Source: Urbifossiella limnaea (lineage in GTDB: Bacteria; Planctomycetota; Planctomycetia; Gemmatales; Gemmataceae). From it: 64,000 nucleotides of DNA. The translations under genes were made by a program, and so were the position numbers. The stretch covers positions 372,001 through 436,000 of the forward strand of contig NZ_CP036273.1 of the NCBI RefSeq assembly GCF_007747215.1. Reading direction: 5' to 3'. Positions 19,352-49,830 of this stretch are shown one piece after another (position 1 is the first letter of the stretch; every line of letters starts with the position of its first letter). The notes below the pieces were generated by a model. It made no database searches and was not told the DNA's origin. It saw only the letters and a list, made by a program, of their open reading frames with translations.

Positions 19352-20539
19352 ATGCTCGCCAAGCTGCGGACGTTCGCCCTCGCCGGGATCGACGCGGTCC
19401 CGGTCGAGGTCGAGGTGGACGCCGCGGCCGGCACCCCCAAGACCGTCCTCGTCGGCCTCCCCGAGCTCGCCGTCCGCGAGAGCGTCCACCGCATCGAACG
19501 GGCGCTCGCCAACCTGGGGTACTTCCGCCCCACCGGCCGCACCATCATCAACCTGGCCCCCGCCGACCTGCGCAAGGACGCCGGCGCGTTCGACCTGCCG
19601 ATCGCGCTCGGCGTCCTCGTCGCCACCGGGCAGGTGAAGCCCGACCAGATCGCCGACCTGGCCGCCGTCGGCGAGCTGGCGCTCGACGGCGCCGTGCGGC
19701 CGGTGAAGGGCGCGCTGTCGGTGGCGATGGCGGCGCGCGACCAGGGGCTGAAGCGGTTGCTGGTCCCCGCCGAGAACGCCCGCGAAGCCGCCGTCGTGGA
19801 AGAACTCCAGGTCTTCGCCGTCACGTCGCTGGCCGAGGCCGTCGGGCTGGTGACTGGGCAGGTGGACGTGGACCCGGTAGCGTACCGGCCCGAGGAGGTG
19901 GCCGGGCACCTGAACCGCTACGACATCGACTTCGCCGAGGTGCGCGGGCAGGAGTCGGCCAAGCGGGCGATGGTGGTGGCCGCGGCCGGCGGGCACAACA
20001 TCCTCATGCTCGGCGCCCCGGGGTCGGGCAAGTCGATGCTCGCCAAGCGGCTGCCGACCATCCTGCCGCCGCTCACCGCCACCGAGAGCCTCGACACCAC
20101 GCGCATCTATTCGGCCGTCGGCCAGCTGCCGCCCGGCGAGGCGCTGCTGGCGACGCGGCCGTACCGCAACCCGCACCACACCATCTCGGACGCCGGCATG
20201 GTCGGCGGCGGGCACGTGCCGCAGCCGGGCGAGATCAGCATGGCGCACCACGGCGTCCTGTTCCTGGACGAGCTGCCGGAGTTCAACCGCAAGAGCCTCG
20301 AAGTGCTGCGGCAGCCCCTCGAAGAAGGCTGCGTCACGATCGCGCGGGCGACCGGCAGCACCACCTTTCCCGCGCGGTTCATCCTGGTGGCGGCGATGAA
20401 CCCGTGCCCGTGCGGCTACCTCGGCGACCCCCGACGCCCGTGCAAGTGCAACCCGATGGTCGTGGAAAAGTACCTCGGCCGCATCAGCGGGCCGCTGCTC
20501 GACCGGAACGGGACGAGTCTTCAGATGCCGATGCCCTGA
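19352..20539 (+). pseudogene. comM: comM/yifB 5' part (Mg-chelatase-like AAA+ ATPase), interrupted by island
   Basis: The first 383 codons are the N-terminal Lon-protease-like domain ([48 protein letters not shown]) and the Mg-chelatase ATPase with Walker [28 protein letters not shown], Walker [12 protein letters not shown], and the cysteine pair region [17 protein letters not shown]. After GPLLD (20503) the frame enters island DNA, adds [11 protein letters not shown] and stops. The missing C-terminal 128 residues lie at 49807-50193. ComM promotes branch migration during natural transformation; the split should inactivate it. Confidence 0.93.
20481..20522. other. attL junction
   Basis: Chromosomal comM sequence lies to the left of the GA at 20501-20502, and element sequence to the right. 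The element half-arm GGACGAGTCT (20511-20520) is complementary at 9 of 10 positions to AGACTGGTCC at attR (49789-49798). The recombinase stop codon (20484-20486) is chromosomal. Confidence 0.85.
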
Positions 20540-22121
20540 GATGGACCACCCCGCCCGACAGCGGATAGCGCGTCAGCTTTGCCTTCTTCACTGCCTCGAA
20601 ACGCAGGTCAATCCGCTCGATGGCCTCGCGCACCACAGTGCGGACGAGTGCCGGGTCGCCGGCCTTCATCACCTCCACCAGCTGCTCGACCTTGCCGACG
20701 ACGTGAGCGACCGACCCCGCCGGTGACTGGCGAGTGGCTCGGTCGAGTTCCTCCTGGGCAGTTGCCCGCTCCTGCTTCCACTGCCGAATCTTCGCCTGCA
20801 TGGTGGGGATGAGGTCGGCGTCCATTAGCAGGAGGTTGTCCGTCGCCTTGGCGATGTTCGCGTCCAGCTTGGCCTGCTTCATCCGCAGCCCCTTCACCGT
20901 TTGCTCGTCTGGCCCAGAGCGCTGCTCGGCCTGCCGCCGAACTTCCGCCTCAAGGCGCTCACGTTCGGCCGGGACGAGCAAGCGCGACTGGAGCACTTGC
21001 GCAATTTGCTCGATGACGACCCGCTCGTTGACGGTCCGCGGGCCGCACCTCCCCTGGGTGAAGTAGCTGCCGCAGCGGTAGATGGCCTGCTTGACTCCCC
21101 CGCTCATCTGCTTGGTGCCGTACATGGGCACGCCACAGTGTGCGCAGCGGAGCAGCTGGGAGAGCGGGTAGCTGGCCTTCTTCCGGCTCGGGGACGTGCG
21201 GGAGCGGTTGGAGGCGAGCTTCTGCTGCACCAGGTCGAAGAGCTCGGGTAGGACCAGAGGCTCATGCTGGCCGGGGATGACAAGCCAGGACTCGGACGAG
21301 GTGCGCTCTGACTTGTTGGCCTTCTTTTGTGTCGGCCGAATCTCCCCGCCGTCCGACCTGAAGAACTTCCCCTGCTTCACCTTCCCCCAAACGTAGGAGC
21401 CCGCGTAGACGTGGTTGGTCAGGATGTTGTGGACGGTGTTCTTACCCCACTGCTGGCGACCGTGCGGGGATGGCACGCCGAACGCGTTCAGCTCGGCGAC
21501 GACCGCCATGAGGCTGAGGTCGCGGTTAGCGTAGCCGTCGAAGATGCGACGGACGACCTCAACCTTCCCAGGTGCGTCCGCGTCGGGCTCAAGGCCGACC
21601 CGATTTCCACCAGCATCGAGCTTGTACCTGTACCCGTAGGCGGCGCGGCCGACGAACAGTTTGCCCTCGCACGCCTTTCGTGCCATGCCGGTGGCCGTCC
21701 GCCGCCCCAAGGTGTGGGACTCGTCCGCCGCCTTGTACTGGCCGAGGAACGCAAGGAGCTGGCCCCCGAGGTCATCACGGTCCCAGGTCAGACGCCGCCC
21801 GGTGTCCACTACCTCGACGAACACCCCGACCTTCCGGAGGGGGTGGACGACGGTCGCCATGTACTCGACCGTGTCGTCCCGGGAGAGCCGAGATTGTTCG
21901 TCCACGACGATGAGGTCGAACTTCCCCTTCTGGGCATCCTGCAATAGCCGCTGGAACTGAGGGCGGGACGAGTCCGAGCCCCGCATCCCCAGGTCTTGGT
22001 AGACCTCGACGACCTCGTACCCCTTCCGCTGACAGTAAGGCAGAACCTGTGAGCGCTGGCGTTCCGGCGACCCGGTCTGGTCGTCGGTGCTCATGCGGAT
22101 GTAGACGGCGGCTCGTGGCAC
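20484..22121 (-). CDS. Large serine recombinase, 3'-truncated by its own integration
   Basis: The 545-residue large serine integrase has a resolvase catalytic domain with YIRMSTDDQ (catalytic Ser near residue 11), [14 protein letters not shown] and the arginine-rich active-site set. A recombinase domain follows ([26 protein letters not shown]), then a zinc ribbon ([13 protein letters not shown] ... [17 protein letters not shown]) and a coiled coil ([14 protein letters not shown] to [13 protein letters not shown]). The GTG start is at 22121. The attP core is inside the gene: after SSRSG the last five residues (RAAAR) and stop are antisense comM. Its natural continuation in the same frame is at 49460-49806. 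Confidence 0.93.
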
Positions 22122-24495: not shown

Positions 24496-24671
24496 GTGCG
24501 TGTAGACTCCGGGGCGAGGAGGTGGCGGGGCGTAGGTGCCGAGCGGCGTATCCGTAAGACCATTGTCCACCCATCCCCGTGCCGCGACAATCCGTCCAGG
24601 TGGTACAGCTTCCGGATTCTCGGGGGCCGGGGCGGTTCGTGCCGGATGCGCCGGTCGGGCAGGAGGTGGGT

Positions 24672-25376
24672 ATGACGTCGGCAGACTGGGCCGCCTCGAC
24701 CGACCCGCAGGAGATGCTGTCGTTCCTGCGGGAGCGGGGGCCGTTGAGCGAGCGGAAGCTCACCCTCCTGTCCGCCGCCTGCTGCCGCCGGGCCTGGGAC
24801 CGGCTAGTGGACCCCCGCAGCCGGCAGGCCGTCGTGGTCGTGGAGCGGGTCGCCGACGGGGATGCGGGCAGGGACGACCTCTGGGCCGCCCGGGAGGGCG
24901 CCATCCTGGCGGAGGTCCACCTGATGAACGACCACTCGGTCCCCTCGGCGGTGCGACTCGACCGGTGGCTGGCGGCCCGGGCCGTGTCCTTCCTGTGCGC
25001 CGCCCTGTCCCAGAACCCCCCGGCCGAGGACCACCTCGCCAACGCCTTCGGGGCCGTCGCCGGGTGGACGGCCTATCCCCGGTCGGGGGCCGAGGACGAG
25101 GTAGCCGCCGGCTTCGCCGCAGTGGCCGCCCTCCTGCGTGACATCTTCGGCGACCCCTTCGCACCCATCACCTGCTTGCCCGAGTAGCGCACCAAGGCGG
25201 TGGTGTCGCTGACGCGGGGCATCTACGAGGAGGGGGCCTGGGACCGGATGAGCGTCCTGGCGGACGCGCTGGAGGACAGCGAGTGCGACTCGGCCGAGCT
25301 GTTGAAGCACTGCCGAGAGCCGGGGGACCACGTGAAGGGCTGTCACGTCATCGACGCAGTCTTGGGCAAGGTGTAG
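24672..25376 (+). pseudogene. Gemmata-type repeat-family protein with internal stop
   Basis: The frame starts at ATG 24672 (AGGAGG at 24661) with DWAASTDPQEMLSFLRERG and ERKLTLLSAACCRRAWDRL, the opening of a protein family very abundant in Gemmata relatives. At 25185-25187 a TAG interrupts it. The same frame then continues for 62 codons (RTKAVVSLTRGIYEEGAWDRMSVLADALED ... GCHVIDAVLGKV) with the family's normal C-terminus. Related proteins usually have Trp at the stop position, so a single TGG-to-TAG change is likely. The function of the family is unknown. Confidence 0.75.
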
Positions 25377-25482
25377 TCGGCCGTCGGGTGCCCCAACCCG
25401 GCCAGTCGGGTTGGTATGAATCTTCTAGCCCGCCAGGCGAATAGCCTGTAACGGATTGGGTACGTCTCCCTGGAGTCGCCGC

Positions 25483-27228
25483 ATGGTTGACCCGCTCGAC
25501 GCCCTCGCGTTCTCGATGAGCACGTCCAAGGGAGTCTACGCCCTGCTACTGGGGTCCGGGGTGTCTCGGTCGGCCAGTATCCCGACGGGCTGGGACATCA
25601 TCCTCGACCTGGTCCGCAAGCTGGCCAAGCTCCAAGGGGCCGACCCTGAGCCCGACCCCGAGAAGTGGTTCGTGACGACCTTCGGGGAGGCGCCGAGCTA
25701 CAGCGTCCTTCTCGACAAACTCGGGAAGACCGGCGCCGAACGCCAGGCGGTCCTGAAGGGGTACATTGAGCCGACCGAGGAGGACCGAGAGGCCGGCCGG
25801 AAGGCGCCGACGCGGGCCCACCGCGGCATCGCCGAGTTGGCCGCCGGCGGGCACGTCAAGGTCATCCTGACCACCAACTTTGACCGGCTGATGGAGTCGG
25901 CCCTTGAGGGGGCCGGCGTCACACCGCAGGTCATCGCCTCGCCGGACGCTGTCGCCGGCATGACCCCGCTGCCGCATGGTCCGGTGACCGTCATCAAGCT
26001 GCACGGCGATTACCTGGACGCCCGCATCAAGAACACCATCGAGGAGTTGGAGACGTACGACACCCACACGAACCGCCTACTCGACCGTGTGCTGGACGAG
26101 TACGGCATGGTAGTGAGCGGGTGGTCGGGGGAGTGGGACACGGCCCTGCGTGCGGCCATCGAGCGGTGCCCGAACCGGCGGTACGCGACCTACTGGAATG
26201 CCTTCCGGGAGCCGACTGGGAGGGGAGCGGAACTCGTCAGGCTGCGTGCCGCGCAGGTCGTCCCGAACCTCGACGCCGACACGTTCTTCACCCGGCTGGC
26301 CGAGAAGGTGAAGGCGCTTGAGGACTATTCGCGTCCGCACCCCCTCAGCACAGCAGCGGCCGTGTCCGCTCTCAAGCGGTACATCCCAGAGCCTGTCCAC
26401 CGCATCCGTCTTGCCGAGTTGGTAGCCACGGAGGCAAACAGCGTCACACAATACATGCGAGAGACGCATGTCCCTCCGCAGGACCGTCTGACGTTCCCTG
26501 CGGCAGCGGCTCGGGCGGAGGTTGTCGGCTCACGGTCGGAGACCGTCGTGCACCTTCTGGCAGCGGGTGGCTATTGGGGTGCCCCCGAGCAGGTGGGGTT
26601 GTGGGTCGATGCCATCGAACGGCTCTCCGGGGCCGTGGTGCCGACGCCGGGCTTCTCGTACCCATCGTGGGAAGGTCTGAGACTTCTCCCAGCCTTACTC
26701 GGCTGGTACGCGTGCGGCCTCGGGGCTCTCGCAGCGAAGAAGTACACGGTGCTTCGCGCACTGCTTTACGATGTCAGGCTGGACCTAGCCGGCCGGGAGG
26801 TGCTACCCGTTACCCTGGCCCTCGACCCGTACAAGGTGGTCCACAAGGATGTGGGCGATGCCTACTGGATGCCGGAACGAAAGCACACGCCTGTTAACGA
26901 GTGGCTGCATCGCGTGCTCAAACCCGCCGTGAGACCCTATATGGCGACTGACGGCGCTTACGACCAACTGTTCGACCGGTATGAGTTACTGCGGACCTTG
27001 GTGGAGTCGGAGGGGAGCAAGATTTTTTCGCCTAGCCGGTTTTGGTATCAGCACAACCAGGGCATGCCGAAAAACGCGGTCAACGACCTCTTGGCTGAGG
27101 TCGAGCAGCAGGGGAAGCACTGGGGAGGCTTCCTGGGCGGCCTTTTCTCATCCAAGAGAGAGAACTTTGACAAGGCGTGGAGAGCCGTCATGGAGCAGAT
27201 GCAGAATAGCGGGGTGGGCTACAGATAG
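25483..27228 (+). CDS. SIR2-domain protein, probable antiviral NADase
   Basis: The 581-residue protein has an N-terminal SIR2-like Rossmann domain: LLLGSGVSRSASIPTGWDI (residues 21-39, NAD-binding Gly loop), ILTTNFDRLME (about 128-138, Asn132 as likely catalytic), KLHGDY (about 172-177, His174) and VSGWSGEWDTALR (about 211-223). The C-terminal ~330 residues are helical and unassigned and could be the sensor. Stand-alone SIR2 proteins of this layout act in abortive infection by depleting NAD+ (DSR, Thoeris ThsA and related systems). The start is ATG at 25483. No obvious partner gene adjoins. Confidence 0.82.
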   Translation: MVDPLDALAFSMSTSKGVYALLLGSGVSRSASIPTGWDIILDLVRKLAKLQGADPEPDPEKWFVTTFGEAPSYSVLLDKLGKTGAERQAVLKGYIEPTEEDREAGRKAPTRAHRGIAELAAGGHVKVILTTNFDRLMESALEGAGVTPQVIASPDAVAGMTPLPHGPVTVIKLHGDYLDARIKNTIEELETYDTHTNRLLDRVLDEYGMVVSGWSGEWDTALRAAIERCPNRRYATYWNAFREPTGRGAELVRLRAAQVVPNLDADTFFTRLAEKVKALEDYSRPHPLSTAAAVSALKRYIPEPVHRIRLAELVATEANSVTQYMRETHVPPQDRLTFPAAAARAEVVGSRSETVVHLLAAGGYWGAPEQVGLWVDAIERLSGAVVPTPGFSYPSWEGLRLLPALLGWYACGLGALAAKKYTVLRALLYDVRLDLAGREVLPVTLALDPYKVVHKDVGDAYWMPERKHTPVNEWLHRVLKPAVRPYMATDGAYDQLFDRYELLRTLVESEGSKIFSPSRFWYQHNQGMPKNAVNDLLAEVEQQGKHWGGFLGGLFSSKRENFDKAWRAVMEQMQNSGVGYR

Positions 27229-27780: not shown

Positions 27781-28863
27781 TCAGACCGCGAGCGCGACGG
27801 CGTACCCGACGAGATTGTCCAGGACCCGGTTCTTCATGCGCCCGAGCTCGCCGTCGAGCAAGGACGCCGTCCTCCACGACCCCGCCCTCGTGGGCCACAG
27901 GCTCCGGTTGTGGTCCAGGGCCTCCGCGGCTCCGTTGTAGGCGTACCAGGCGGTCGGCTCGCCATCATGCCCCTTGCCCTCCAGCCAGAGCCGCCGGACT
28001 TCGGCCCTCTTGCGCATGGCCCGCTCGACCACGACCTCGGCCAACTTCGCCTCGGGGTTGAACCGCGGGTCGAACCGGGGGTCGGGTGCGACCACGTCGA
28101 GCACCAGCCGGTCGAACGCCTCGTCGGTCAGGCGGGCGCCCATCAGCAGCCGGTACTGGCGGGCGATGACCTCGAACCTCTCGACTACCCCGGCGAACAT
28201 CGTCTCGGCCGCCTCCACCAGCTTCGACCTTGCGTCGGCCTTGTGCGAGACCGTCACCCACTGGGCCGACCCGGCGCCAGCGGCTTCCGTCTCGGCGGCA
28301 CCGAGCGTGTTCGCGCAGACGACGCGGATGGCGGTGTGGCCGAGCATCACCCCGCGCCGCCCCGAGTGGTTGGCCATCACCGTCGCGTACGGGAGGAGCC
28401 CGCCATCCCGGGCGAAGACGTCCCGCGCGTGCGGCCCGAACCGCTCCAGGTTCCACCGCACCAGCAGCCACGCGTCGGCCCCGTCCCGCAGGACGCCGCC
28501 CGTCTCCAGCGCCGCCACCCGCTCCTCCACCAGCGGCTTGAGCACCTCGAACGCCTGCCGGTTGGTGACAATCTCGTATGCGGAGCCGACGGGCCCGAGC
28601 ACCCTCTTCGTGTCCGGCCGCCAGACGTAGTAGGCGCCCTGGCCCTGGACGTAGACGCGGCGGTCGGGCTCGGCGTCGGGGTCCTCCGGGACGAAGTAGT
28701 GGCGTTTCTCCAACGGGTAGTCGAGCCGGTCGAGGGCCCCGTCGAAGTCGAACTGCTGGGCGGCGGTGAGGGGGATGCCCTCGCGGTGCCACGGGGTGCC
28801 GCCGGAGGCGGCGAAAAACAGGTTGGCGGTGCCGTCGGCGCGGTACTCCAGCTCTGCGGCCAT
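27781..28863 (-). CDS. DUF932 (phage/plasmid-like TIGR03299) protein
   Basis: The 360-residue protein matches the DUF932 pattern: NLFFAASGGTPWHREGIPL near the N-terminus ("G-x-PWH-x-G"), YYVWRPDTKRVLGPVGSAYEIVTNRQAFEVLKPLVEE, then GADAWLLVRWNLERFG, ATVMANHSGRRGVMLGHTAIRVVCANTLGAAE and a C-terminal AWYAYNGAAEALDHN. DUF932 proteins are hallmarks of phages and plasmids and often neighbour DNA-repair or replication genes. The start is ATG at 28863. It probably forms a unit with the GP88 gene upstream. Confidence 0.88.
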   Translation of the reverse strand: MAAELEYRADGTANLFFAASGGTPWHREGIPLTAAQQFDFDGALDRLDYPLEKRHYFVPEDPDAEPDRRVYVQGQGAYYVWRPDTKRVLGPVGSAYEIVTNRQAFEVLKPLVEERVAALETGGVLRDGADAWLLVRWNLERFGPHARDVFARDGGLLPYATVMANHSGRRGVMLGHTAIRVVCANTLGAAETEAAGAGSAQWVTVSHKADARSKLVEAAETMFAGVVERFEVIARQYRLLMGARLTDEAFDRLVLDVVAPDPRFDPRFNPEAKLAEVVVERAMRKRAEVRRLWLEGKGHDGEPTAWYAYNGAAEALDHNRSLWPTRAGSWRTASLLDGELGRMKNRVLDNLVGYAVALAV

Positions 28864-28931
28864 GATGAACTCCAGCAGGAACAGGGGAAGGAGCCCGCCC
28901 CACAGTAGGACGGGCGAAAGGGAGCCGGCGG

Positions 28932-29708
28932 TCAGCCGGCGACCAGTCGGAGGGGCAGGCGGGTTGAGGGGCCGTACCCGTAGAACCCGCTGCGGCGGAG
29001 TGCGGCGACGGCCCGGGCGGCCGGCGTTCCGGGCGGCTGGGTGCCATGCAGCAGGAGGGCGAAGTCCGGCCCGTGGGCCATCGCGTGAGAATCGTCGTGG
29101 TCGACGTCGAGGCCGAGGTCGTCGGCTTCCTGCTCGGAGAACACGACCCGCGCCGACCGCAGTCCGTACTCGTCGATGAGGTCGTCGTGGGTGCCGCCAC
29201 GCGAGGCGGTCAGCACGAGGTTCGGGACGGGGCCGGGCGTGTGCCCGTTCCCGACCTGGTCGAGTCGGGCGACCCACAGGGGAGCCGCTTTGGTATAGGC
29301 GTACAGGGTCGATTGCGGACGCGCCCGGGCGACGGCCAGCCAAGCGTCGAAATAGTCCTGGGAGAAGAAATCTCCGCTGTCGTGGACGCGAACCAGCCGC
29401 GCGAAGGGCGAGAGGGAGTCCAGCAGGAGGCTGGTCATCTGCTCGGCCGTCCGACAGGCTCGAAGAGCCTGGAGGTTGTGCCACCGGGCGCGTCGTACGC
29501 TCGGGCGGCGGGCCTCCATCGACGCGGCGTAGCACCGGAACTGCGTGTGCCGGCCGTCGCGGATTCGGCCGGTGCGCCGGTTCGCGCGGCTCAGGCAGGC
29601 GGACGCGAACGGGCAGCTCCAGCCGGCCGCGAGGCTGAACGTGGTCACCGTCGGGGGGAGCTTGCCGTTCCCCTGGCCGAACTTGAGCGGGTGGCGGGCC
29701 ACGGTCAT
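28932..29708 (-). CDS. GP88-domain phage-type protein
   Basis: The 258-residue product resembles the gene-88 family of actinophages: FGQGNGKLPPTVTTFSLAAGWSCPFASACLSRANRRTG (paired Cys), TQFRCYAASMEARRPSVRRARWHNLQ, LVRVHDSGDFFSQDYFDAWLAVAR and YAYTKAAPLWVAR. These are the conserved blocks of that family in order. The ATG start at 29708 is preceded by a strong AGGAGG (complement of 29711-29716). The function of GP88 is unknown. With DUF932 it marks the element as phage- or plasmid-derived. Confidence 0.85.
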   Translation of the reverse strand: MTVARHPLKFGQGNGKLPPTVTTFSLAAGWSCPFASACLSRANRRTGRIRDGRHTQFRCYAASMEARRPSVRRARWHNLQALRACRTAEQMTSLLLDSLSPFARLVRVHDSGDFFSQDYFDAWLAVARARPQSTLYAYTKAAPLWVARLDQVGNGHTPGPVPNLVLTASRGGTHDDLIDEYGLRSARVVFSEQEADDLGLDVDHDDSHAMAHGPDFALLLHGTQPPGTPAARAVAALRRSGFYGYGPSTRLPLRLVAG

Positions 29709-29722
29709 TCCTCCTGAATGGG

Positions 29723-30568
29723 ATGAGGGCACGAAAAAGCCCCCGGGGTGGCCGGGGGCGGGGCGGGCGACCAGCAGGGATGGGCACAATCAGCGGGCCC
29801 CGTCGGGCCGCCGGCGTGAAGCTCTCTCCGCCGGACCGGCACCCCTCACCTTCCTGCTGGGCGGAAGCGGGCGCGCCGGTCGGCGACCGGGCGACGCGAA
29901 CGGGATGAAGCGGTGCGGGCGGGCGGAAGCGCTCGGCCAACACGCCGGGCGGTCGGAGCGAGAGGAGCACGCTCACCCCCTGACCGGGTCAGTACCGGCC
30001 GGGGGTAGGTCTGGAGGAAAACGGCCGACCCCGCGGCGCCGACGCCGGGTTTCGGCGGCCGGCGGGGTAGTACTTGGTGAGCCGTCGTTCGGTCACCCGA
30101 AAAACGCCGACCATAAATATCAAGGGGCAAGTGGGCCCCACGGTTTGCCGAAGTCGGCTTTCCGCCGGGGTGACCGCGAGCCAGCCCCTACCGGCTGGCC
30201 GGGAGCGCATCGGGGACCTACCCCGTCGAGGAAACCGCCCTCCCCAGGGGGCGGGCGCGAGCGGTCGACGCGAGGCCAGAAAATTCGGGCTCTGACCAAA
30301 CCCCGTCATCCCGACCTCACGCCCACACCACGGGCCGAGCGTCGACAACCCACACCGGAGTTCAGCCCAGGCGAGCGCTGCTCGTGAGCTGACGGGCCGG
30401 TACGACGAACGACGGCGGACGGACTGTAATCGCAATGCCCTCGGACCTGCTCTTCTAGTGGGTGTGAGGACAAAGGGGCTGGGTGCGCGCACGGGCGAGC
30501 GGACCCGCTCGAATCGGGACGACGGGCGTCATCAGGACTCCCCTGCTGGTCTCGCCCCCGCCGCCCCT
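29723..30568. other. Long stretch without a convincing gene
   Basis: Frames here are Arg/Pro-rich shadows. It holds two copies of the CCAGCAGGGA word (29771-29780; complement at 29851-29860), a short AT-rich knot (about 30105-30122) inside GC-rich DNA, and several hairpins such as that around 30180-30210. A replication or regulatory region is possible but nothing proves it. Confidence 0.4.
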
Positions 30569-36912: not shown

Positions 36913-38112
36913 ATGGTGGACCTGAACGACCCACTGCGCCGGGCGATGGAGCTGGAGGGGCTGCATAAGAAGATGTTCAACCCCGCGCTCGCCTTGGAGG
37001 GCGGCATCCTCGCCCAGCTACGCGCCCAACCGAGCCTCATGGCGATGGTTGGGTCCCAGCTCGCCCTTCAGAAGGCCATCTTCCCTGACTTGAAGACGCT
37101 GCTGGTCCCGCTCCCGGGCGTGTCGCTCAGCGCGACCAGCACCATCGCCTCGATGCTTGATTCTGTGCGAGTTAACGCTACGGTTCGAGCATTACTTAGC
37201 GACGAAACCCAGAGGATGAGCTCCGCGTTCGACGCCGCGAGGCTCAGCGCCCTCGCTGATTGGAAGGCCATTTTCAGAGGCATCTCCGCGGTGGAGGCTG
37301 GCTTCGCCCTGCCGCTCCAGGCGCACTTGTCGGTGCTGTTCGAGCGCTCTGCTCTCGCGGACGGGGCCTTCTCACGGGTGAAGGAGGGCTCGCTCGGCTC
37401 CAGGCTGGGCCTTGCCGAACACGACCGTGCGGGGCTCACAGAGTCTCAGGGCGAGTTACAGGCGGGCTTTCGCTCCTACTTCGATGAGGTTGCCGCTTCT
37501 GACCTCGGGGTTCTGGAGCTTCCCGCCCAGCTCACCGAGCTCCCCGCCGCCGAGCTCGTGAACCAGGCCGCCCTGGTGGTCTCGACCTCCGAGACGGAGG
37601 AGGATGCTGAGGCTGTCCTGGTCGAACGGGCGGTGGCGGACGAACTGGCGGCGGAGACCACCGACTTGCTCACCGGTCTGGTGGCCGAACTAGACCCCGA
37701 ACTCGTGCAACTCCTGAAGGGCGCGCGGGAAGCGTTCGCGTCCCGCCACACCGACTACATTCGCCACTTCGTGACTTCCTACCGCGAGCTGTTCACCCAT
37801 CTTCTTCACGCGCTTGCGCCGGACGACGAGTTGAAAAAATGGACGAAGGACCCGAAGCACTACGACAGGAACAAGCCGACGCGGCGGGCGCGAGTGCAGT
37901 TCCTCACCCGCGACCTCAAGGACTCGTTCGGCGGGTTCTTGAACGCCGATGTCGACGCGGTCTTAGAGTTCATCGGGGTGTTTCAGAAGGGCACGCACGG
38001 CGTCAATCCGCAGTTCTCGGATGAGCAACTGCGGGACATGAAGAACCGGACCGAGGGGCTGTTCCGCTTCATGCTCGTCACGCACCGTGTCGCGGTGACG
38101 GGCAGGCTTTAA
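36913..38112 (+). CDS. Uncharacterised protein, possible pPIWI-associating-nuclease-like C-terminus
   Basis: The 399-residue protein has a helical N-terminal half without known motifs (QLRAQPSLMAMVGSQLALQKAIFPDLK). Its C-terminal ~150 residues read REAFASRHTDYIRHFVTSYRELFTHLLHALAPDDELKKW, then TRRARVQFLTRDLKDSFGGFLNADVDAVLEFIGVFQKGTHGVNPQFSDEQLRDMKNRTEGLFRFML. This resembles the predicted pPIWI-associating nuclease/AbiJ-related domains often found in defence loci. No catalytic set can be assigned with confidence. Codon use is less GC-biased than in the chromosome. The start is ATG at 36913. Confidence 0.5.
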   Translation: MVDLNDPLRRAMELEGLHKKMFNPALALEGGILAQLRAQPSLMAMVGSQLALQKAIFPDLKTLLVPLPGVSLSATSTIASMLDSVRVNATVRALLSDETQRMSSAFDAARLSALADWKAIFRGISAVEAGFALPLQAHLSVLFERSALADGAFSRVKEGSLGSRLGLAEHDRAGLTESQGELQAGFRSYFDEVAASDLGVLELPAQLTELPAAELVNQAALVVSTSETEEDAEAVLVERAVADELAAETTDLLTGLVAELDPELVQLLKGAREAFASRHTDYIRHFVTSYRELFTHLLHALAPDDELKKWTKDPKHYDRNKPTRRARVQFLTRDLKDSFGGFLNADVDAVLEFIGVFQKGTHGVNPQFSDEQLRDMKNRTEGLFRFMLVTHRVAVTGRL

Positions 38113-40318: not shown

Positions 40319-41152
40319 TCAGTTCTTGCAGAGCCCCATCTCCTTGGTCCGCAACTTCGCTTTCCAGAGGGCCTCCATCTTCAGCACATCGTCTGGCGTC
40401 GCGGCCGTCCCTGCCACCTCAAGGATGGCCACCTGGTAGTCGCTCGGGTCACGGCTTTTCAGGCCCACGTTGCCGCCGTGACCATTTTGGACGTAGTCCT
40501 GCCACCGGCCCCAGAACCCGTCTGCGCCGGACGCCGACCCGACGTACTGCTCCTGCGTCTTGGGGCACGTCAGCACGTAGACCCCCTTCACCGCACGGAG
40601 GGCCGCCACCCACCCGGTGTGGAGGCTGTCCAGCCCGGATAGGGGCCGGATGAAGTTCAGGTAACCGGGGAACGCGGGCTCGGTGAACGCCGCCCGGAGT
40701 TCGAGGACCACCTTGTCCTGGGTGTCCGCCCGCTGAATCCAGCTCAGGTAGCCGCCTCCCCAGGCTACGACAAGCCGGCCTGCGAGGTCCTTCAGGTGGT
40801 CGGTCAGAGTGAGGTCGTACCAGTGGCACGACCCGGCCTGGTCCACACCGTCCTTGTGGGGCATCGGCAGGTCCTGGTCCAGCACCTTCTTCCCAGCAAC
40901 ACTGTAGAGGCCGGCGAACAGGGTCTCGTCGGTCGGGGAGACGACGAACGCCGCCCAGTACGCCCCGGTCAGCCGCGGTTCGTTGTCGAGTGACTGGCTC
41001 GACTGGTAGCTGTGGAACTTTTCGGGGTGGTCCCGCCACAGCTCGTAGGGCGAACGCCCCTTGGCCGCGCTGCGGTCCTTGTGCCGGAGCAGTCGGACCT
41101 CGGCCAGGGACAGGCCCTCCTGCTTGAGGAGGGTGTTGAACATCAACGGCAT
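40319..41152 (-). CDS. GIY-YIG nuclease family protein
   Basis: The 277-residue protein's C-terminal domain shows the GIY-YIG order: GVYVLTCPKTQEQYVGSASGADGFWGRWQDYVQNGHGGNVGL, with the paired Tyr strands (VYVL / QYVGSA), the Arg helix (FWGRWQDY), DYQVAILEVAG, and the catalytic Glu helix (DDVLKMEALWKAKL). The N-terminal ~170 residues form a separate domain (LTGAYWAAFVVSPTDETLFAGLYSVAGKK, WYDLTLTDHLKDLAGRLVVAWGGGYLSWIQ) that looks EVE/PUA-like and may recognise DNA. The start is ATG at 41152. This is a plausible restriction effector. Confidence 0.72.
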   Translation of the reverse strand: MPLMFNTLLKQEGLSLAEVRLLRHKDRSAAKGRSPYELWRDHPEKFHSYQSSQSLDNEPRLTGAYWAAFVVSPTDETLFAGLYSVAGKKVLDQDLPMPHKDGVDQAGSCHWYDLTLTDHLKDLAGRLVVAWGGGYLSWIQRADTQDKVVLELRAAFTEPAFPGYLNFIRPLSGLDSLHTGWVAALRAVKGVYVLTCPKTQEQYVGSASGADGFWGRWQDYVQNGHGGNVGLKSRDPSDYQVAILEVAGTAATPDDVLKMEALWKAKLRTKEMGLCKN

Positions 41153-41207
41153 CCGAGAAGCCCTCGGGGCCAACGCGACAGGGTCTGCACGCCGTGTCGC
41201 CAGGTTA

Positions 41208-42338
41208 CTACGCTTCCAGCTCGTCGGCCGGGTCGTAGAACTCGGCGACGTCTTCCAAGAACTCCGGCTTTACGTGCTTGACCATGTCCTTGAGCAGGTC
41301 GAGCCGGGCGCACAGCTTCGAGTACGGCAGGAACCCGCAGATGCGGTGGAGCGGGGTCTTCCGGTACGCGAACGTCGGCCGCGGAATCTCCTTCTTGAAC
41401 TTCGTGTATCGCTCGTCCGGCCCGACCAGGTACAGCCGAATGTTGATGTTCGGCTGCATCGTGATGAGGTCCGACATCCGCAGCAGCCCCGAGTAGACGG
41501 CCGTCGTGTGCTCCACCTCGAACGCCGCCACGATGGCGTTCTCCTCGCTGAACCAGATGACGTCGATGTTCTCGACGATGCTGTTGGTCACGTCGTCGAA
41601 GTTCGTCGGGAGCGACCCCAGCAATCGAGGTACCGACCCGACCGCCGCCCCGTTCCATGTTTTTCCACGGTCGGACTTCGGCGCCCAGACCTTCAAGCCC
41701 ATCTGGGACCCAAGGTCGAGAAGCCGGTACTGAATCTCGGTGTGGGTCGGGCCGCCGGTCTGGAGCGGCGCGTCCGGCTCGGCATCGACCTCGGCGACCG
41801 GGACGCCGACGACCGCGTCGATTTCCTCGCCGCCCTGGCGGAGCTTGGTCTTGTACAGATTCGCGGACCGCAACAGCTTCTTTTTGTCGACCGGCCGGGA
41901 CACCGGCTTGGCCTTCGTGTCCTGGAGGACCTGGAGGATGCCGTCGCCGTCCGCGGGCTTGTACCGGGTGGGCGAGCTGCGGAGGAACCCCGACCACTGC
42001 TTGGCTGTCCCCCCGGCCGGGAAGAACGAGAGCTTCCCCTCGAACTGCTCCATCGGCACCCCGTGCTCGGGCGGCAGCATGACGAGCGGTTCGACGTCGA
42101 ACCGGACCGGGAACGACTCTTCCTTCCAAATCTTCTCGTCGCTCTTGTACCGCTTGCTGGTCGCCTTGAGGGCCCCGACCCACCGCTTCACCCCGACCAG
42201 GTAGCACAGGAAGACGTCGCCCGGCTCGATGGCCTGGGCGCGGGCCCACTGGTGCTCCCGGAACCCGGTCACCTTCGCCCCCGCCTTCCGGAACTCCTCC
42301 CAGGTCGTGCCGGTGAACAGGTCGAGCCAGTAGGTCAT
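41208..42338 (-). CDS. EVE-domain fused PD-(D/E)XK endonuclease
   Basis: The 376-residue protein has an N-terminal EVE domain: TYWLDLFTGTTWEEFRKAG, HQWARAQAIEPGDVFLCYLVGVKRWVGALKATS, then FPVRFDVEPLV. The C-terminal nuclease-like domain shows THTEIQYRLLDLGSQMGLKVW (Glu201), NSIVENIDVIWF (Asp259), AAFEVEHTTAVYSGLLRMSDL (Glu274-x-Glu276) and INIRLYLVGPDERY. This is the pattern of modification-dependent (type IV-like) restriction enzymes in which EVE recognises a modified base. The start is ATG at 42338; it is first gene of the cassette. Confidence 0.72.
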   Translation of the reverse strand: MTYWLDLFTGTTWEEFRKAGAKVTGFREHQWARAQAIEPGDVFLCYLVGVKRWVGALKATSKRYKSDEKIWKEESFPVRFDVEPLVMLPPEHGVPMEQFEGKLSFFPAGGTAKQWSGFLRSSPTRYKPADGDGILQVLQDTKAKPVSRPVDKKKLLRSANLYKTKLRQGGEEIDAVVGVPVAEVDAEPDAPLQTGGPTHTEIQYRLLDLGSQMGLKVWAPKSDRGKTWNGAAVGSVPRLLGSLPTNFDDVTNSIVENIDVIWFSEENAIVAAFEVEHTTAVYSGLLRMSDLITMQPNINIRLYLVGPDERYTKFKKEIPRPTFAYRKTPLHRICGFLPYSKLCARLDLLKDMVKHVKPEFLEDVAEFYDPADELEA

Positions 42339-42564
42339 GGGCGAGCCGCCGCGGCGTGAAGCAGAGGGTGTGTCAGAAGCGTATCAGGTGCGACGCGACC
42401 GACCGAGCAAAAAGTCGCCTGCTTGTTGAGGTACATAGCGACCGCCGATGGCGGACTCTCCACTGCCGCTGTCCTGCGCGATGTCCAAGAATCTGGAACG
42501 GGTCGGTGGGCTTGCCGGTGTAAATCCTGATAGACCGGAAGCCCACCCGCACCCCTACCGACCC

Positions 42565-43095
42565 ATGCCCACCGAACTCCGCCGCATCCCCTCTCTGCCC
42601 GAGCCCGCGCACTACGCCGACGACGAAGGCCACATCTGGGCCGAGCGAGACGGCGTCGTCCAGCTGTTGAAGGAGCGGGTCCTAAAGAACGGTTACCTGG
42701 CGGTGTCCGTACGAGTCTGCGTGAAGGACTCGATTCGGAACGTCCACGTCCTCGTGGCCGAGGCATTTCTGGGCCCGCGCCCGCCTGGCCAGGTCGTCCG
42801 GCACGTTGACGGCGACAAGCTCGTCAACCGGCCTTCTTCATTGGAGTACGGGACTCACCAGGCGAACGCCGCCGACGCCCGGCGCCACGGAACCGCCCGC
42901 TACGGCGAGAATCATCCGAACGCGAAACTGACCGCTGAAAATGTTGTCGGGGTGCGGTTCGCGCTTCAGATGGGCGTGGCGCGTAAGGCCATCGCGCAGG
43001 AGCTCGGGGTGAGCCTCTCGGCCATCCATGACATCGCGCAAAAGCGGCGGTGGCGCGCCGAGCCGACGGCGGCGGTCGCGGCGGTGGCCCCGTGA
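42565..43095 (+). CDS. HNH homing-type endonuclease with C-terminal HTH
   Basis: The 176-residue protein has an N-terminal NUMOD4-like strand segment (HYADDEGHIWAERDG), an HNH_3-type core (NVHVLVAEAFLGPRPPGQVVRHVDGDKLVNRPSSLEYGTHQANAADARRHG; His-Val-Asp-Gly, Asn and His metal residues) and a helix-turn-helix tail (LTAENVVGVRFALQMGVARKAIAQELGVSLSAIHDI). These are the typical parts of free-standing phage homing endonucleases. The ATG at 42565 is chosen; a longer frame from 42448 is possible. It interrupts two minus-strand defence units. Confidence 0.82.
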   Translation: MPTELRRIPSLPEPAHYADDEGHIWAERDGVVQLLKERVLKNGYLAVSVRVCVKDSIRNVHVLVAEAFLGPRPPGQVVRHVDGDKLVNRPSSLEYGTHQANAADARRHGTARYGENHPNAKLTAENVVGVRFALQMGVARKAIAQELGVSLSAIHDIAQKRRWRAEPTAAVAAVAP

Positions 43096-43196
43096 CCTAC
43101 TTCCTCTGGTTCGACGGTGGCGCCGTCCCCGCCGGGGTCAGCCGCTCCGCCCACCTTACGTGTCGGTCAGCGGCCGTAGGGCGAGGAGCAGAAGAG

Positions 43197-46100
43197 CTAC
43201 GGGGCAGAAGTACTCGCCATCGGTTGGCGCTGCCTTCCCCCCCGCTGAGCTGCGCTCACGTATCTGCCCTCCGAAATCTCGATGGCCTGCCCGAGGGAGG
43301 CAAGCGTCTCAAGCAACTCGGCCACCTTGTCGACGCGAGCCCTCAGGAAGGTCTTCGCAAGCCGCTCCGCCGTTATGGGACCGGATTGGGCCGTGAGCGC
43401 GACGCGGACCGCCTGAGCCTGAGCCGCTAGTGCTTTCGGCCACGGGGTGCGGGCCGCGACCGTCTTCGCAGTGGAGACCGTCTCTTCCTCTTCCGTTAGG
43501 GGGAGCGGCGATTGAGTACCCGCGTCCCCTGCGGGCTTCTGGAAATCGGGCCGGAGCCATCGGACTTCATCCCGGTTTTCTTCGGAGACACGAACGGCGT
43601 TAAGTGCGACTACCCGTTCAAGAATCTGCTGCTCGCCGAGCGATGTCGGCCAGTCGTAGGCCTCAAAAACGGCCCGGTCGAGCTCGTCGTGCAAGTCCTT
43701 CAGGAGGGAAACTAGGCCCTTGTCGTGCGTGCCTTTCTCGTCCGTGCTCAGTGCCTCTCCGGCTCGCAGCTTTGCAAACACGTTGTAGGCATCCGTGAGC
43801 GTGAGACTCGCGTGCATCGCCTGCTGCCGCTTGCGGTGAGCGTCGAGCCGTTCGGCCACGTTACGAATCTTCGCCTTCTGCTCGTCCGAGCAGACAGGGA
43901 ACGGAAATCGTGAGAAGCAGGGCCCGTTTTGGTACCGCGGGTCATTGCCGAACCCCATCCGACCACCAGCAGCCAGGGCCCACGTTACGTGAATCCGACT
44001 GGATAGAACACCCAACACGAAGGCATCCTCGTGAGCTATCGCGACGATGGAGCCGTCGGCCAGCGTGCCAGGGAGGGGAACAAAAACGAAGACGCGGTGT
44101 TTGGCAACCTCGGTCGTGGCGATGAAGCGAGTCAGCCCCTGACACGCGCGGCGGAGCTTCGGGGCGTTCTCTCCGAACAGCCACCAGTTCCGCTTCCGCG
44201 ATTCGCGGCGGTTCTGGTCGCGAGCCGGCTTGACCCGGTCGTAGAGGAGTTGAAGAGCTTCCGGAAACTGTTCGCGGGCCTGCTCCTGGCTGAGGCCGAA
44301 GAAGTCGATGGCGTACACCTCCCGGGGTTGCTTGACGATGTGATTCCCGACGACGTAGCGGGGGAGGAACCGCGAGAGTTCAGCCCGACCGACCAGAAGT
44401 CCCTGCCGTTCGCTCGGCTGGACGAAGAACCCCCCGCCGTCGAGTTTGCGGTCGCCCACGAGCTTGCAGCCCTGGAGGCCCAGATTCTCGTTACTCCGCA
44501 ACGGCTTTGCGGCGCGGACGTCCACCCCGACCGTCAGGTCCGAATTGATTCGCCCCTTGCAGTAGCCGAGGGTAACGGTGTCCGATTCGTTTTCGACCAC
44601 GCCGAGAACCCCGGGCAGTGCCCCGCGCAAACCGACGGTCATTCCGATGCGGACGGCAGCGCCGTCGCTGGCGTCGGTCCACGGGTGGTCGGCGATGGCA
44701 AACGCAAGAGAGAAGTTCTCCTCGTCGGCAAGGTGGGTCTGCACGACCTGGCCGTTGAAGGTCTGGGTGATGCTGTTCGTGGTGATGAGCCCGAAGCGGC
44801 GGGCCTTACCCTCACGAACCAGCTTCGCCGCTTTGTGCCACCAGTACATCACGTAGTCGGCCGTTCTCGGCATGTCGGGGTATGCCTTCCAGAGCGCGTC
44901 GACGTAGCCGTCCCCGAGGGCGAGCCGAACGTCACGGACCCCGATGAACGGCGGATTTCCGATAACGAAGTCGGCCGCCGGCCAAACGGCCTCTTTCGGG
45001 TCCTCGTACCGAGAGCATGGCTCGCGCGCGGTGTCGTCCGGCACTTGCTCCCCGGTGACGGGGTGGGTCTTCATCGTCTTCCCGTCCCATCGAGTGACGG
45101 GGTTGCCGCTGTCGTCGCGCAGGACGTCCTTCCGCTCGAAGCTCAGGACCCCGTCGCGGCACTCGATGTTCCGGAATGCCTTGATGACCGGCTCGGCGGG
45201 TTGGGTATTACCGAACGTCCGGAAGTGCCATTGCAGGTATCCAATCCAGAGGACTAGTTCCGCGATAGCGGCCGCCCGGGGATTGACCTCGATTCCGAGC
45301 AACTGGTGCGGGTCGACGGTGAAGCCGACGGCCTCGAACGAGAGAACTCCGCCGAGGCTCGAAAGCATGTCCCGGGCTTCGCCCTCGATGCGTTTCAGGT
45401 GCTCAAGGGTCACGTACAGGAAGTTCCCGCTTCCGCATGCGGGGTCCAGAACGGTCACCTTCTGAAGGCGGTTAATGAATTCCTGGACCTCGCCCCGAGC
45501 GTCATCGAGTTTACCGGCCTTGGCGCGCGTGACGGCCGCCGCCTTCGCCGCCTCCCACTCCTCTCGCAGCGGCTCGACGATTGTCGGGATGACGAGGCGC
45601 TCGACGTATTCACGTGGCGTATAGTGCGCTCCCAGCTTGTGTCGCTCGCCCGGGTCAAGCGCTCGCTCAAGCAACGTGCCGAAGATGGCCGGCTCGACTT
45701 CGCGCCAATCCGAGCTTGCCGCGGTGATGAGCAGTTCGAGCTGTGCGTCGGTGAGGGGGAGCGCCTCGGCGTTGTGGAAGAGCTGGCCGTTGAACCGGAG
45801 GAGCTTTTTCTCCAGAATCGGCGAAAAGTCACCCCGGTCCATCGCCTCCCACAGCGAGCGGGTCATGGCCGGGAACGAGTCGACCTTTCCCCGCCGACTC
45901 TTCAGGAAGGTTTTGAAGCTCTCCTTCGGGAGCAAGCCCACATCTTCCGCGAACATCGTGAAGAGACATCGCATCAGGAAGCTGGCAACGAGCTCCGGCG
46001 GATGCTTGGAACGTTCGAGCGATTTTGCAAGCTCTGCGAGCTGGACCGCTACTTCTCGGGTTACTTTCGCGCTGTACCGGCTTGGGTCGAGTGACAGCGG

Positions 46101-46745
46101 GTCGGTCCAAAGCTTCTTGAGCCTCTCCTTGATTTCGGACTTGGTCAGGTTACGGAGCGGAATCCGGTGGGAACGCGAGTCCGGGAACGCCACGTAAGTC
46201 TTGCCCGTGCGGGCGAAGTCTGCGTAGAGCTCAATGCTGTGTCCGACGTCGACGACGACAAGAAAGGGAGGCCATCCGTCCGAGGCCGGGAGCGCCTTGG
46301 CGTACAACTCTGCCTGCCCCTTGGCTGCGAGCATGGCATCATCCCAGCCGTGCGTTCCCCGCACGGCAGTTCCCTTCCGCCCCTTTTTTGGGGGGCTGGT
46401 GGCGTCAGCCTTCGCTGCCTCGGCCTTGTCACTTCCCTGTTTCGCTTCGAGAACGAAGCAGTCTCGCTTGTACAGGTCGATGAACTTTGTGGTCGTGTTG
46501 CCCAGCCCGTCGTCGAAGAGAACGGGATGCTCGAACACGTAACTGTTCTGGGTACTGTCCGCTTGGGCAGGTTCGGGGCGGGTTACTTCGAGGAGGTCGC
46601 ACAACTCGCTCAAGAACAGGGCGTAGTTCGCTCGCTCGGCCGCACCCGATTTCTCCCACCGGGAGATGAACGAATCGGCTGTGAGCGTTTGGGCGGCCAT
46701 CGCGTCACTCGACGGGTTGCTTGCACAGTCGTGCGATTCGGTCAT
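43197..46745 (-). CDS. MmeI-like (type IIL) fused restriction-modification enzyme
   Basis: The 1182-residue single-chain enzyme has an N-terminal nuclease with FIDLYKRDCFVLEAKQ, i.e. Asp90-X9-Glu100-x-Lys102, the same spacing as in MmeI. It also has a helical spacer, an N6-adenine methyltransferase with motif I DPACGSGNF (about 434-442), GIEVNPRAA, and motif IV GNPPFIG (about 596-602). A target-recognition and C-terminal helical region follows (FFVQPSERQGLLVGRAELSRFLPRYVVG, NRRESRKRNWWLFGENAPKLR). It should methylate one strand of its site and cut about 20 bases away. The start is ATG 46745; ATG 46700 is an alternative. Confidence 0.9.
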   Translation of the reverse strand: MTESHDCASNPSSDAMAAQTLTADSFISRWEKSGAAERANYALFLSELCDLLEVTRPEPAQADSTQNSYVFEHPVLFDDGLGNTTTKFIDLYKRDCFVLEAKQGSDKAEAAKADATSPPKKGRKGTAVRGTHGWDDAMLAAKGQAELYAKALPASDGWPPFLVVVDVGHSIELYADFARTGKTYVAFPDSRSHRIPLRNLTKSEIKERLKKLWTDPLSLDPSRYSAKVTREVAVQLAELAKSLERSKHPPELVASFLMRCLFTMFAEDVGLLPKESFKTFLKSRRGKVDSFPAMTRSLWEAMDRGDFSPILEKKLLRFNGQLFHNAEALPLTDAQLELLITAASSDWREVEPAIFGTLLERALDPGERHKLGAHYTPREYVERLVIPTIVEPLREEWEAAKAAAVTRAKAGKLDDARGEVQEFINRLQKVTVLDPACGSGNFLYVTLEHLKRIEGEARDMLSSLGGVLSFEAVGFTVDPHQLLGIEVNPRAAAIAELVLWIGYLQWHFRTFGNTQPAEPVIKAFRNIECRDGVLSFERKDVLRDDSGNPVTRWDGKTMKTHPVTGEQVPDDTAREPCSRYEDPKEAVWPAADFVIGNPPFIGVRDVRLALGDGYVDALWKAYPDMPRTADYVMYWWHKAAKLVREGKARRFGLITTNSITQTFNGQVVQTHLADEENFSLAFAIADHPWTDASDGAAVRIGMTVGLRGALPGVLGVVENESDTVTLGYCKGRINSDLTVGVDVRAAKPLRSNENLGLQGCKLVGDRKLDGGGFFVQPSERQGLLVGRAELSRFLPRYVVGNHIVKQPREVYAIDFFGLSQEQAREQFPEALQLLYDRVKPARDQNRRESRKRNWWLFGENAPKLRRACQGLTRFIATTEVAKHRVFVFVPLPGTLADGSIVAIAHEDAFVLGVLSSRIHVTWALAAGGRMGFGNDPRYQNGPCFSRFPFPVCSDEQKAKIRNVAERLDAHRKRQQAMHASLTLTDAYNVFAKLRAGEALSTDEKGTHDKGLVSLLKDLHDELDRAVFEAYDWPTSLGEQQILERVVALNAVRVSEENRDEVRWLRPDFQKPAGDAGTQSPLPLTEEEETVSTAKTVAARTPWPKALAAQAQAVRVALTAQSGPITAERLAKTFLRARVDKVAELLETLASLGQAIEISEGRYVSAAQRGGRQRQPMASTSAP

Positions 46746-48714: not shown

Positions 48715-48771
48715 CAGGGGCCCCAGGCCCACAACCGGATGCAGCCGACATACACCAGACAGAGGACGGGC

Positions 48772-49215
48772 GTGTCGGACGACGAGTGGCGCACCTGTGA
48801 GGACCCGGCGGCGCTGATTGCCGCCCTCCCAGCCGACACGCCCGAGCGGCCCCTCCGCTTGTTCGCTGCGGCCTGCTGCCGCCGCGTCTGGGGCCTGATG
48901 CCCGAGGACGACTGCCGCCGGGCCGTGGAGGCCGTCGAGTGCGCCGCCGAGGACCCCGCCGCCGCACCGGAGGCGGACGCGGCGCTGGAGGCCCTCCAGG
49001 CCGGCTACCACCGGGTCCAGGGTGCGGAACCCGGGCCGCGGGGGGCGTACCTCGCGGCGACGGTGGCGTGGTTCCACGACCCGGTCGAGGCGGCGCAGCT
49101 GACGGCCCGGTCGGCGGCGATTGCTGCGGCGGGGGACACCGACGGGCCGCGGTGGGAGAAGGAGCGGCGGGCGCAAGCCGAGCTCCTGCGGCGCCTCGTC
49201 GAGCGGCCGGCATGA
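48772..49215 (+). CDS. Gemmata-type repeat-family protein, short form
   Basis: The 147-residue protein (SDDEWRTCEDPAALIAAL, RPLRLFAAACCRRVWGLMPEDDCRRAVEAVECAAED, AAQLTARSAAIAAAGDTDG) is related to the interrupted gene at 24672-25376: both open with an acidic "D-x-E-W-x-x-x-x-D-P" and the "L-x-L-x-A-A-x-C-C-R-R-x-W" block. The start is GTG at 48772 behind GAGGAC; ATG 48739 is possible. It overlaps the next gene by 4 bases (ATGA). Confidence 0.7.
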   Translation: MSDDEWRTCEDPAALIAALPADTPERPLRLFAAACCRRVWGLMPEDDCRRAVEAVECAAEDPAAAPEADAALEALQAGYHRVQGAEPGPRGAYLAATVAWFHDPVEAAQLTARSAAIAAAGDTDGPRWEKERRAQAELLRRLVERPA

Positions 49216-49571: not shown

Positions 49572-49806
49572 GACAGTACCGATGTGGCTGAAGCGTATGG
49601 CAGTCTGTGAATGCCCTCGGCTGCGAGCACGCGGGCGACCTGCTTGCGGTTGAGGCCGGTCTGGTGGCCTATCTGGCGTGGCAGCAACCCCTGTTGGTGC
49701 AAGGCGATGACTCTCGCCCGCACTTCGGGGCAGATGTGCTTGTTGAGCTGGGGGACGACATGGACGGTGAAGGGGATGGGCAATGTGCAGACTGGTCCAC
49801 GTCCTG
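49460..49806 (-). pseudogene. Detached C-terminal part of the serine recombinase (two HTH motifs)
   Basis: The open minus frame carries CPEVRARVIALHQQGLLPRQIGHQTGLNRKQVARVLAAEG and LELREQGLPIGEISARVGFSKGAVGRALRRRRSK, two resolvase-like helix-turn-helix units. It has no in-frame ATG or GTG (only TTG at 49783), and the frame runs open through attR. Joined at the core to the recombinase codons at 20502-20507 it is in phase, adding PGRGPVCT plus 107 residues. So it is the 3' end of the intact circular-form gene, expressed here only if TTG is used. Confidence 0.8.
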
Positions 49807-49830
49807 GACCGCATCGACCTGCACGTCGAG
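49785..49830. other. attR junction
   Basis: Element sequence (half-arm AGACTGGTCC at 49789-49798) meets comM at the GA of 49807-49808. The chromosomal half (49809-49822) pairs at 9 of 14 positions with the attL chromosomal half (20487-20500) about the same GA, as expected of an attB dyad. Confidence 0.85.

Follow-up and report, generated by a model that had tools for sequence, protein, structure and literature searches.

A C-terminal helical module shared by SIR2, TIR, caspase-like, kinase, AlbA_2 and DUF4062 proteins may regulate a candidate one-protein immune system

The SIR2 protein encoded in a stretch of the Urbifossiella limnaea genome (the window: 64,000 nucleotides, positions 372,001 to 436,000 of NZ_CP036273.1) ends in a helical module (C-module) that we also found behind a non-SIR2 N-terminus in 17 other proteins. 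This distribution, read from sequence comparison, marks the C-terminus as a mobile unit joined to several killing or signalling enzymes and suggests that it is a reusable part for alarm or control. Taking sequence and structural models together, we consider it likely that the window protein is a single-chain immune protein made of an effector and a regulator, in which the C-module would serve as an exchangeable regulator of a SIR2 NADase acting through abortive infection. The features discussed are collected in Table 1.

The gene is real and not a chance frame, because its product matches SIR2_2 and the PADLOC candidate family PDC-S65 and has 85 near-full-length relatives. The putative ribosome-binding site lies 7 bases upstream of the ATG at 25483, and we preferred this start to an upstream TTG because of that spacing and because the relatives align from residue 1. 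A base-composition gene scan selected this reading frame too (0.66, 0.47 and 0.82 GC at the three codon positions). SIR2_2 was the sole Pfam family found in the protein (residues 127-217, 1.1e-9); a HAD match (0.012, residues 87-153) within that domain falls below the cut-off and was set aside as chance. NCBIfam gave no match above its cut-offs. The PADLOC profile of PDC-S65 (PDLC05061) aligned residues 2-575 with profile positions 16-588 of 592 (662.7 bits, 2.1e-199), and matches to the PADLOC pAgo-linked, ThsA and SIR2 families were confined to residues 60-242. The term PDC-S65 was absent from the full-text literature searched; this SIR2 form is already catalogued but undescribed there. An earlier note had described a stand-alone SIR2 protein, as the complete frame and its SIR2_2 and PDC-S65 matches confirm. 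It had also called the C-terminus unassigned and 330 residues long. Indeed, no family or fold of its own was found for that part, but the whole protein is the PADLOC candidate, and the model puts the end of the SIR2 domain at about residue 284, leaving about 297 residues.

An AlphaFold2 model of the protein, built with 67 sequences, had a mean pLDDT of 91.1. The closest fold to residues 3-284 in VIA was the SIR2 domain of SPARSA (8y80_E; Z 27.3, 2.9 A over 270 residues), and the next matches were ThsA (Z 22.7), KomC (21.8) and DSR2 (20.9). In the 67 rows of alignment A1, residues G24, G26, N132, D134, D176, S215 and D219 are invariant; the Gly loop and the NADase residues, read as intact from the single sequence, are thus retained across the family (counts in Table 1). 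Alignments A1 and A2 omit L070 (which starts at residue 75), L081 (the window itself), L082, the second L025 copy and relatives more than 75% identical to one already retained. We take N132 and H174 to be catalytic, following established SIR2 enzymology and mutants of a related system, Nezha, and from fold and residues we infer that the modelled domain is an NAD+ hydrolase. H174 is replaced by Asn in L021, L044 and L063, and some SIR2 forms with Asn at this position may be inactive or different. Passages of PMC11559045 state that N168A and H227A abolish defence by Nezha of V. cholerae.

Modelled alone (298 aa), the C-part reached a pLDDT of 90.6 and a pTM of 0.92 and was helical except for two 3-residue strands. 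A Foldseek search of this part against the PDB, the check proposed in the earlier note, returned nothing at E<=0.001, the best match being a designed armadillo protein at 0.12. The best VIA match was also a designed protein, with a Z of 7.1 that is under the tool's meaningful level for helical folds. The BFVD viral library gave no match at E<=0.001, sequence profiles of the C-part found no PDB relative, and across Pfam, NCBIfam and PADLOC no family except PDC-S65 covered it. The predicted module has no clear fold match despite its confident model, and an absent match is no proof of a new fold. A resemblance to HEAT/ARM repeats was weak, with Foldseek and VIA below their thresholds, so we do not claim it; matches of the C-profile to NS1, adenylate kinase and an esterase (E>0.1) were regarded as chance. 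Between the window protein and 66 relatives, identity averaged 53% for the SIR2 part against 23% for the C-part, which was the lower of the two in 66/66 comparisons. Faster divergence of the C-module is as expected for a part that faces changing ligands; weak constraint could be an alternative cause.

The module appeared outside SIR2 proteins when a search of the window's taxonomic family with the whole protein recovered L088 (genome G014, of that family), which aligns only over residues 273-578. Its N-terminus is a TIR-like domain without a Pfam name, and its plasmid relatives are partly annotated as TIR-domain proteins. The C-part of L088 scored 216.8 bits with profile A2, which was built solely from the C-parts of SIR2-type proteins. 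Further fusions were sought by tblastn on plasmids and by profile searches of sampled genomes, and all 17 non-SIR2 proteins score between 63 and 222 bits with A2 (Table 1, where L115, L119 and L121 are classed from their annotation or because they closely resemble Pfam-scanned proteins). As a control, 1,234 neighbour proteins gave 0 matches at E<=10 when reversed and only the 87 known members when read forward. In whole-genome searches, A2 recovered caspase forms at 1.7e-66 and 1.7e-64 per genome. Homology of the C-module is strong over its full length in the caspase, TIR-like and kinase forms, and partial or with insertions in the Rhodococcus TIR, AlbA_2 and DUF4062 forms. The effectors keep their motifs: the caspase His and Cys in 4/4 proteins, HRDxKPxxN and DFG in the kinase, and the DUF4062 Glu. 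Outside the 17 stand L102 (a SIR2 form cut short close to a copy of IS256), L113 and L120 (ORF without an effector) and L128 (a 71-residue frame with a stop).

Genome samples of 95, 392, 274, 308, 247, 292 and 198 genomes (about 1,800) contained 15 matching genomes besides the window's own and five seed genomes. These carried 4 SIR2, 3 caspase-like, 3 DUF4062, 1 TIR, 1 TIR-like and 1 kinase form and 2 effectorless frames, ratios that are indicative only, as the samples centred on SIR2-bearing genomes and the queries were two profiles and one single protein. A tree of 67 of the 88 C-modules (21 similar SIR2 rows were removed by a similarity filter) required 7 effector changes for 7 states, the minimum possible being 6; its inner nodes are moderately supported and long branches group together, and we claim no order of swaps. 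Adjoining two DUF4062 fusions is a gene of about 293 aa (L134 7230-8114; L135 7303-8181), a possible partner. No viral relative of the TIR-like form L088 was found. A C-module domain common to SIR2, TIR, caspase, kinase, AlbA_2 and DUF4062 proteins was not found in the literature searched, with most subscription papers outside that search.

Table 1. Features of the window and proteins that carry the C-module.
Feature	Position or carrier	Strand	Basis
SIR2 gene	25483..27228	+	Codes for 581 aa; assigned to PADLOC candidate family PDC-S65
GGAG, likely ribosome-binding site	25472..25475	+	Read directly in sequence
SIR2 NADase-type domain (predicted), residues 1-284	25483..26334	+	AlphaFold2 model, VIA structural alignment, Pfam SIR2_2
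Gly loop codons G24-S25-G26	25552..25560	+	Invariant in 67/67 rows
N132 codon, predicted catalytic Asn	25876..25878	+	Invariant in 67/67 rows
H174 codon, predicted catalytic His	26002..26004	+	H in 64/67 rows, N in 3
All-helical C-terminal module (predicted), residues 285-581	26335..27225	+	Separate model; homology to 17 non-SIR2 proteins
Large serine recombinase, left end of island	20484..22121	-	Pfam Resolvase, Recombinase, Zn_ribbon_recom
Left junction core GACCG	20501..20505	.	Alignment to the unbroken comM in 5 congeners
Right junction core GACCG	49807..49811	.	Congener comparison; Mg_chelatase_C fragment at 49783-50193
TIR + C-module	L098, L099, L100, L121 (Rhodococcus plasmids), L112		TIR_2 by Pfam in L112, L098, L099, L100
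TIR-like + C-module	L088		
Caspase-like Peptidase_C14 + C-module	L090, L091, L101, L108		Pfam
Ser/Thr kinase + C-module	L110		Pfam Pkinase
Schlafen AlbA_2 + C-module	L117, L118, L119 (Mycobacterium, Mycolicibacterium plasmids)		SLFN_AlbA_2 by Pfam in L117, L118
DUF4062 + C-module	L114, L115, L116		Pfam; L116 above cut-off, L114 below (21.6 vs 24.7 bits)
Abi_C protein	L013 9781-10524		Pfam 7.9e-18

Scanning genome contigs for the SIR2 form gave 152 relatives in 169 pattern matches, of which 80 were retained, and the 85 relatives retrieved are of similar length and 34-44% identical. Nearly all are a single frame of about 570-600 aa once trimmed to the aligned start. By their record titles they span Pseudomonadota, Acidobacteriota, Cyanobacteriota, Planctomycetota, Chloroflexota, Bdellovibrionota and one archaeon. 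Relatives occur at five loci on viral contigs, and 44 plasmid records matched; among phage records there were 4 matches, all weak and partial, and none covered more than 80% of the query. At least one of the viral-contig loci, L084, is apparently a copy of a bacterial locus (L035), with identical match statistics. The window's genome holds one full copy of the gene, and 2/95 genomes of its taxonomic family match, its own included. The distribution of the SIR2 form is patchy and mobile.

At 16/86 loci, the SIR2 gene belongs to a type I restriction operon, with hsdS or hsdR as its immediate neighbour in the same orientation; in these loci the start of the SIR2 gene commonly overlaps the stop of hsdS by 3 bases. 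HsdM, HsdS and HsdR were identified by Pfam in L005, and HsdS made up 14/144 scanned neighbour proteins. The 86 loci are counted without removal of duplicates (L052 resembles L053, and L035 resembles L084), and the neighbour scan excluded proteins that were below 130 aa, above 1,400 aa, at a distance of more than 4 kb or interrupted by a contig end, as well as neighbours of L081, L053 and L084, after which 144 of 147 proteins were scanned. No neighbour cluster other than type I restriction genes occurred in more than 5 of the 86 loci. An Abi_C protein adjoins the SIR2 gene within type I restriction operons at L013, L014, L024 and L083 (cluster G, 4 loci). The titles and opening lines of abstracts searched held no description of a SIR2 gene within a type I restriction operon; passages of PMC11514479 report SIR2-HerA pairs beside R/M systems. 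The statement that the protein has no obvious partner holds for the adjacent ORFs scanned in the window, which have no Pfam family (24579-25187) or match DUF932 (27781-29976), but not for the loci in restriction operons.

In the window, the gene is carried by an island of about 29.3 kb that splits comM/YifB (Mg-chelatase-like) into an N-part at 19352-20505 and a C-part at 49807-50193. In 5/5 congeners comM is unbroken, with 72-92% identity on either side. The serine recombinase at the left end lies 3.4 kb from the SIR2 gene, and other island genes match GP88, DUF932, an MmeI-like type IIG enzyme, type II restriction, UzuA and an HNH homing-endonuclease; the UzuA, type II restriction and HNH matches and the MmeI-like enzyme stand consecutively at 40319-46745. 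These observations fit a mobile element with defence cargo. A predicted pPIWI-associating nuclease (pP_pnuc_1, 1.2e-27) lies at 36913-38112, and no Argonaute was found among the island ORFs scanned with Pfam. The ORFs at 24579-25187 and 48739-49215, near opposite ends of the island, share a similar '..AACCRR.W' stretch and have no Pfam family. Rfam gave no family in 19000-51000.

We compared the protein with described systems. It matches the PDC-S65 profile in full length, whereas the PADLOC profiles describe the whole SIR2 form and L088 was reached only through its C-terminal half; seeing the C-terminus as a module takes in more than that entry does. The SIR2 domain is of the SPARSA type by sequence and fold, but there is no detectable homology past residue 284, and the two adjacent ORFs have no Piwi family by Pfam, leaving no adjacent short pAgo. 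SPARSA, ThsA and DSR2 are absent among the C-module structural matches listed, an absence that excludes nothing. The C-terminal SLOG domain of Thoeris ThsA is alpha/beta, whereas the window protein has no SLOG family (Pfam, E<=1) and its C-module is helical in the model, in agreement with the earlier note, which had set the two apart. DSR1 and DSR2 are likewise stand-alone SIR2 proteins with a long C-terminal part, but their chains have about 1,000-1,260 residues against 581 and align only in the SIR2 part; the Dsr1 model scored 11 bits on the window protein (cut-off 1400). According to the abstract of PMC11087589, DSR2 is triggered by the tail tube protein. Unlike in SIR2-HerA (Nezha), Pfam found no HerA ATPase in the window's adjacent ORFs.

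Another parallel in architecture is Swarozyc, which passages of PMC13174449 describe as a single chain of a DUF4062 NADase and a C-terminal auxiliary domain that binds the phage portal, KpSwz having 326 aa and an HTH/winged auxiliary domain. As far as those passages go, it resembles the window protein in joining an NADase and a C-terminal part in one chain, and some C-modules found here also follow DUF4062; the window protein differs in that its effector is SIR2. A DUF4062 fusion found here matches KpSwz over DUF4062 only, and the KpSwz auxiliary domain, compared by sequence profile, gave no match to C-module profile A3 at E<=1. Swarozyc is a precedent for an effector and a phage-sensing C-terminal part in one chain. 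In EAD systems, one regulatory part occurs with many effectors, including SIR2, TIR and peptidases, and passages of PMC8195603 present EADs as small adaptors in multi-component systems, whereas the domain described here has about 290 residues and shares its chain with the effector. Modular effector exchange is also known from SPARTA/SPARSA (passages of PMC10952713). Stand-alone SIR2 defence proteins, and modular effector exchange as a principle, are already known.

Our best reading is that the window protein is a one-protein abortive-infection system that would deplete NAD+, probably breaking down the supply of its own cell when a virus attacks. In our model, the C-module (285-581) would hold the SIR2 effector off by autoinhibition and would sense infection, directly or via a cellular change, switching the effector on. 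Other SIR2 effectors activate by assembly, and assembly may activate this one too. Once released, SIR2 would hydrolyse NAD+, and the infected cell would stall or die ahead of phage release. The same module may govern TIR, TIR-like, DUF4062, caspase-like, kinase and AlbA_2 effectors in other bacteria. Some SIR2 forms appear to be co-transcribed with a type I restriction system, given the overlapping stop and start codons, and would probably form a second line behind restriction. We assign a regulatory or sensing role to the C-module chiefly because one module stands in single chains with effectors of differing fold that share a role in death or signalling. This sharing, judged by homology, is better evidence for a sensor or regulator than the lack of any SLOG, HerA or pAgo. 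The kinase fusion, which is one protein, and the AlbA_2 fusions are a misfit with NAD+ depletion and fit only a general effector role. The broadest form of this proposal, for which we see an even chance, is that the C-module is an undescribed, effector-agnostic immune receptor without an NTPase that answers one class of infection signal, serves at least seven kinds of effector and in one branch backs up restriction.

The restriction operons raise a different possibility, in which the C-module guards restriction-modification: it would bind or monitor an R-M enzyme and free the SIR2 NADase when a phage blocks restriction, behaviour for which PrrC-type anticodon nucleases are a model. The 16 type I loci with their frequent overlap with hsdS speak for such a guard, as does the MmeI-like enzyme 16 kb from the SIR2 gene in the window's island, but 70/86 loci, the window's included, are not beside type I genes. 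Moreover, in the 9 flanking regions examined around non-SIR2 forms there were no type I restriction genes, so the restriction link is not general; we hold a guard to be unlikely. The same association with restriction genes counts against a stress or plasmid-maintenance device, in which the module would sense a cellular signal and the effectors would be toxin-like or serve competition between mobile elements instead of acting against phage. In favour of this alternative, many non-SIR2 forms found here are on plasmids, though partly since plasmids were searched, and relaxase genes occur close to three of the TIR forms. However, PADLOC lists the family as a defence candidate and the effector kinds are those used in anti-phage immunity, and we consider it a little less probable still than the restriction guard.

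Finally, the protein might be a degenerate SPARSA, with a SIR2 domain, a diverged APAZ-like C-terminus and a short Argonaute that was lost or is distant. Its SIR2 part is nearest to SPARSA, the PADLOC SIR2-pAgo families match residues 106-238 and the lengths are similar (581 against 584-587). Against this, homology ends near residue 284 both by sequence (chain 122-298) and by structural alignment (3-284), and the modelled C-module is all-helical save one pair of 3-residue strands. The same module is, in addition, fused to caspase and kinase domains. No SPARSA chain occurs in the best 50 Foldseek matches of the C-module, which alone excludes nothing. Taken together, we regard this origin as very improbable.

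If the C-module is an exchangeable regulator, as we favour, one domain on NADases, a caspase-like protease, a kinase and a Schlafen-type protein would offer a test bench for separating sensing from killing. Should the trigger be common, a single ligand should activate all forms; should it differ between lineages, the module's rapid divergence would point to where recognition takes place. Such a module would supply a mechanism for PDC-S65, a catalogued and unexplained candidate, and would mark out many TIR, caspase and Schlafen proteins as likely to act in immunity.
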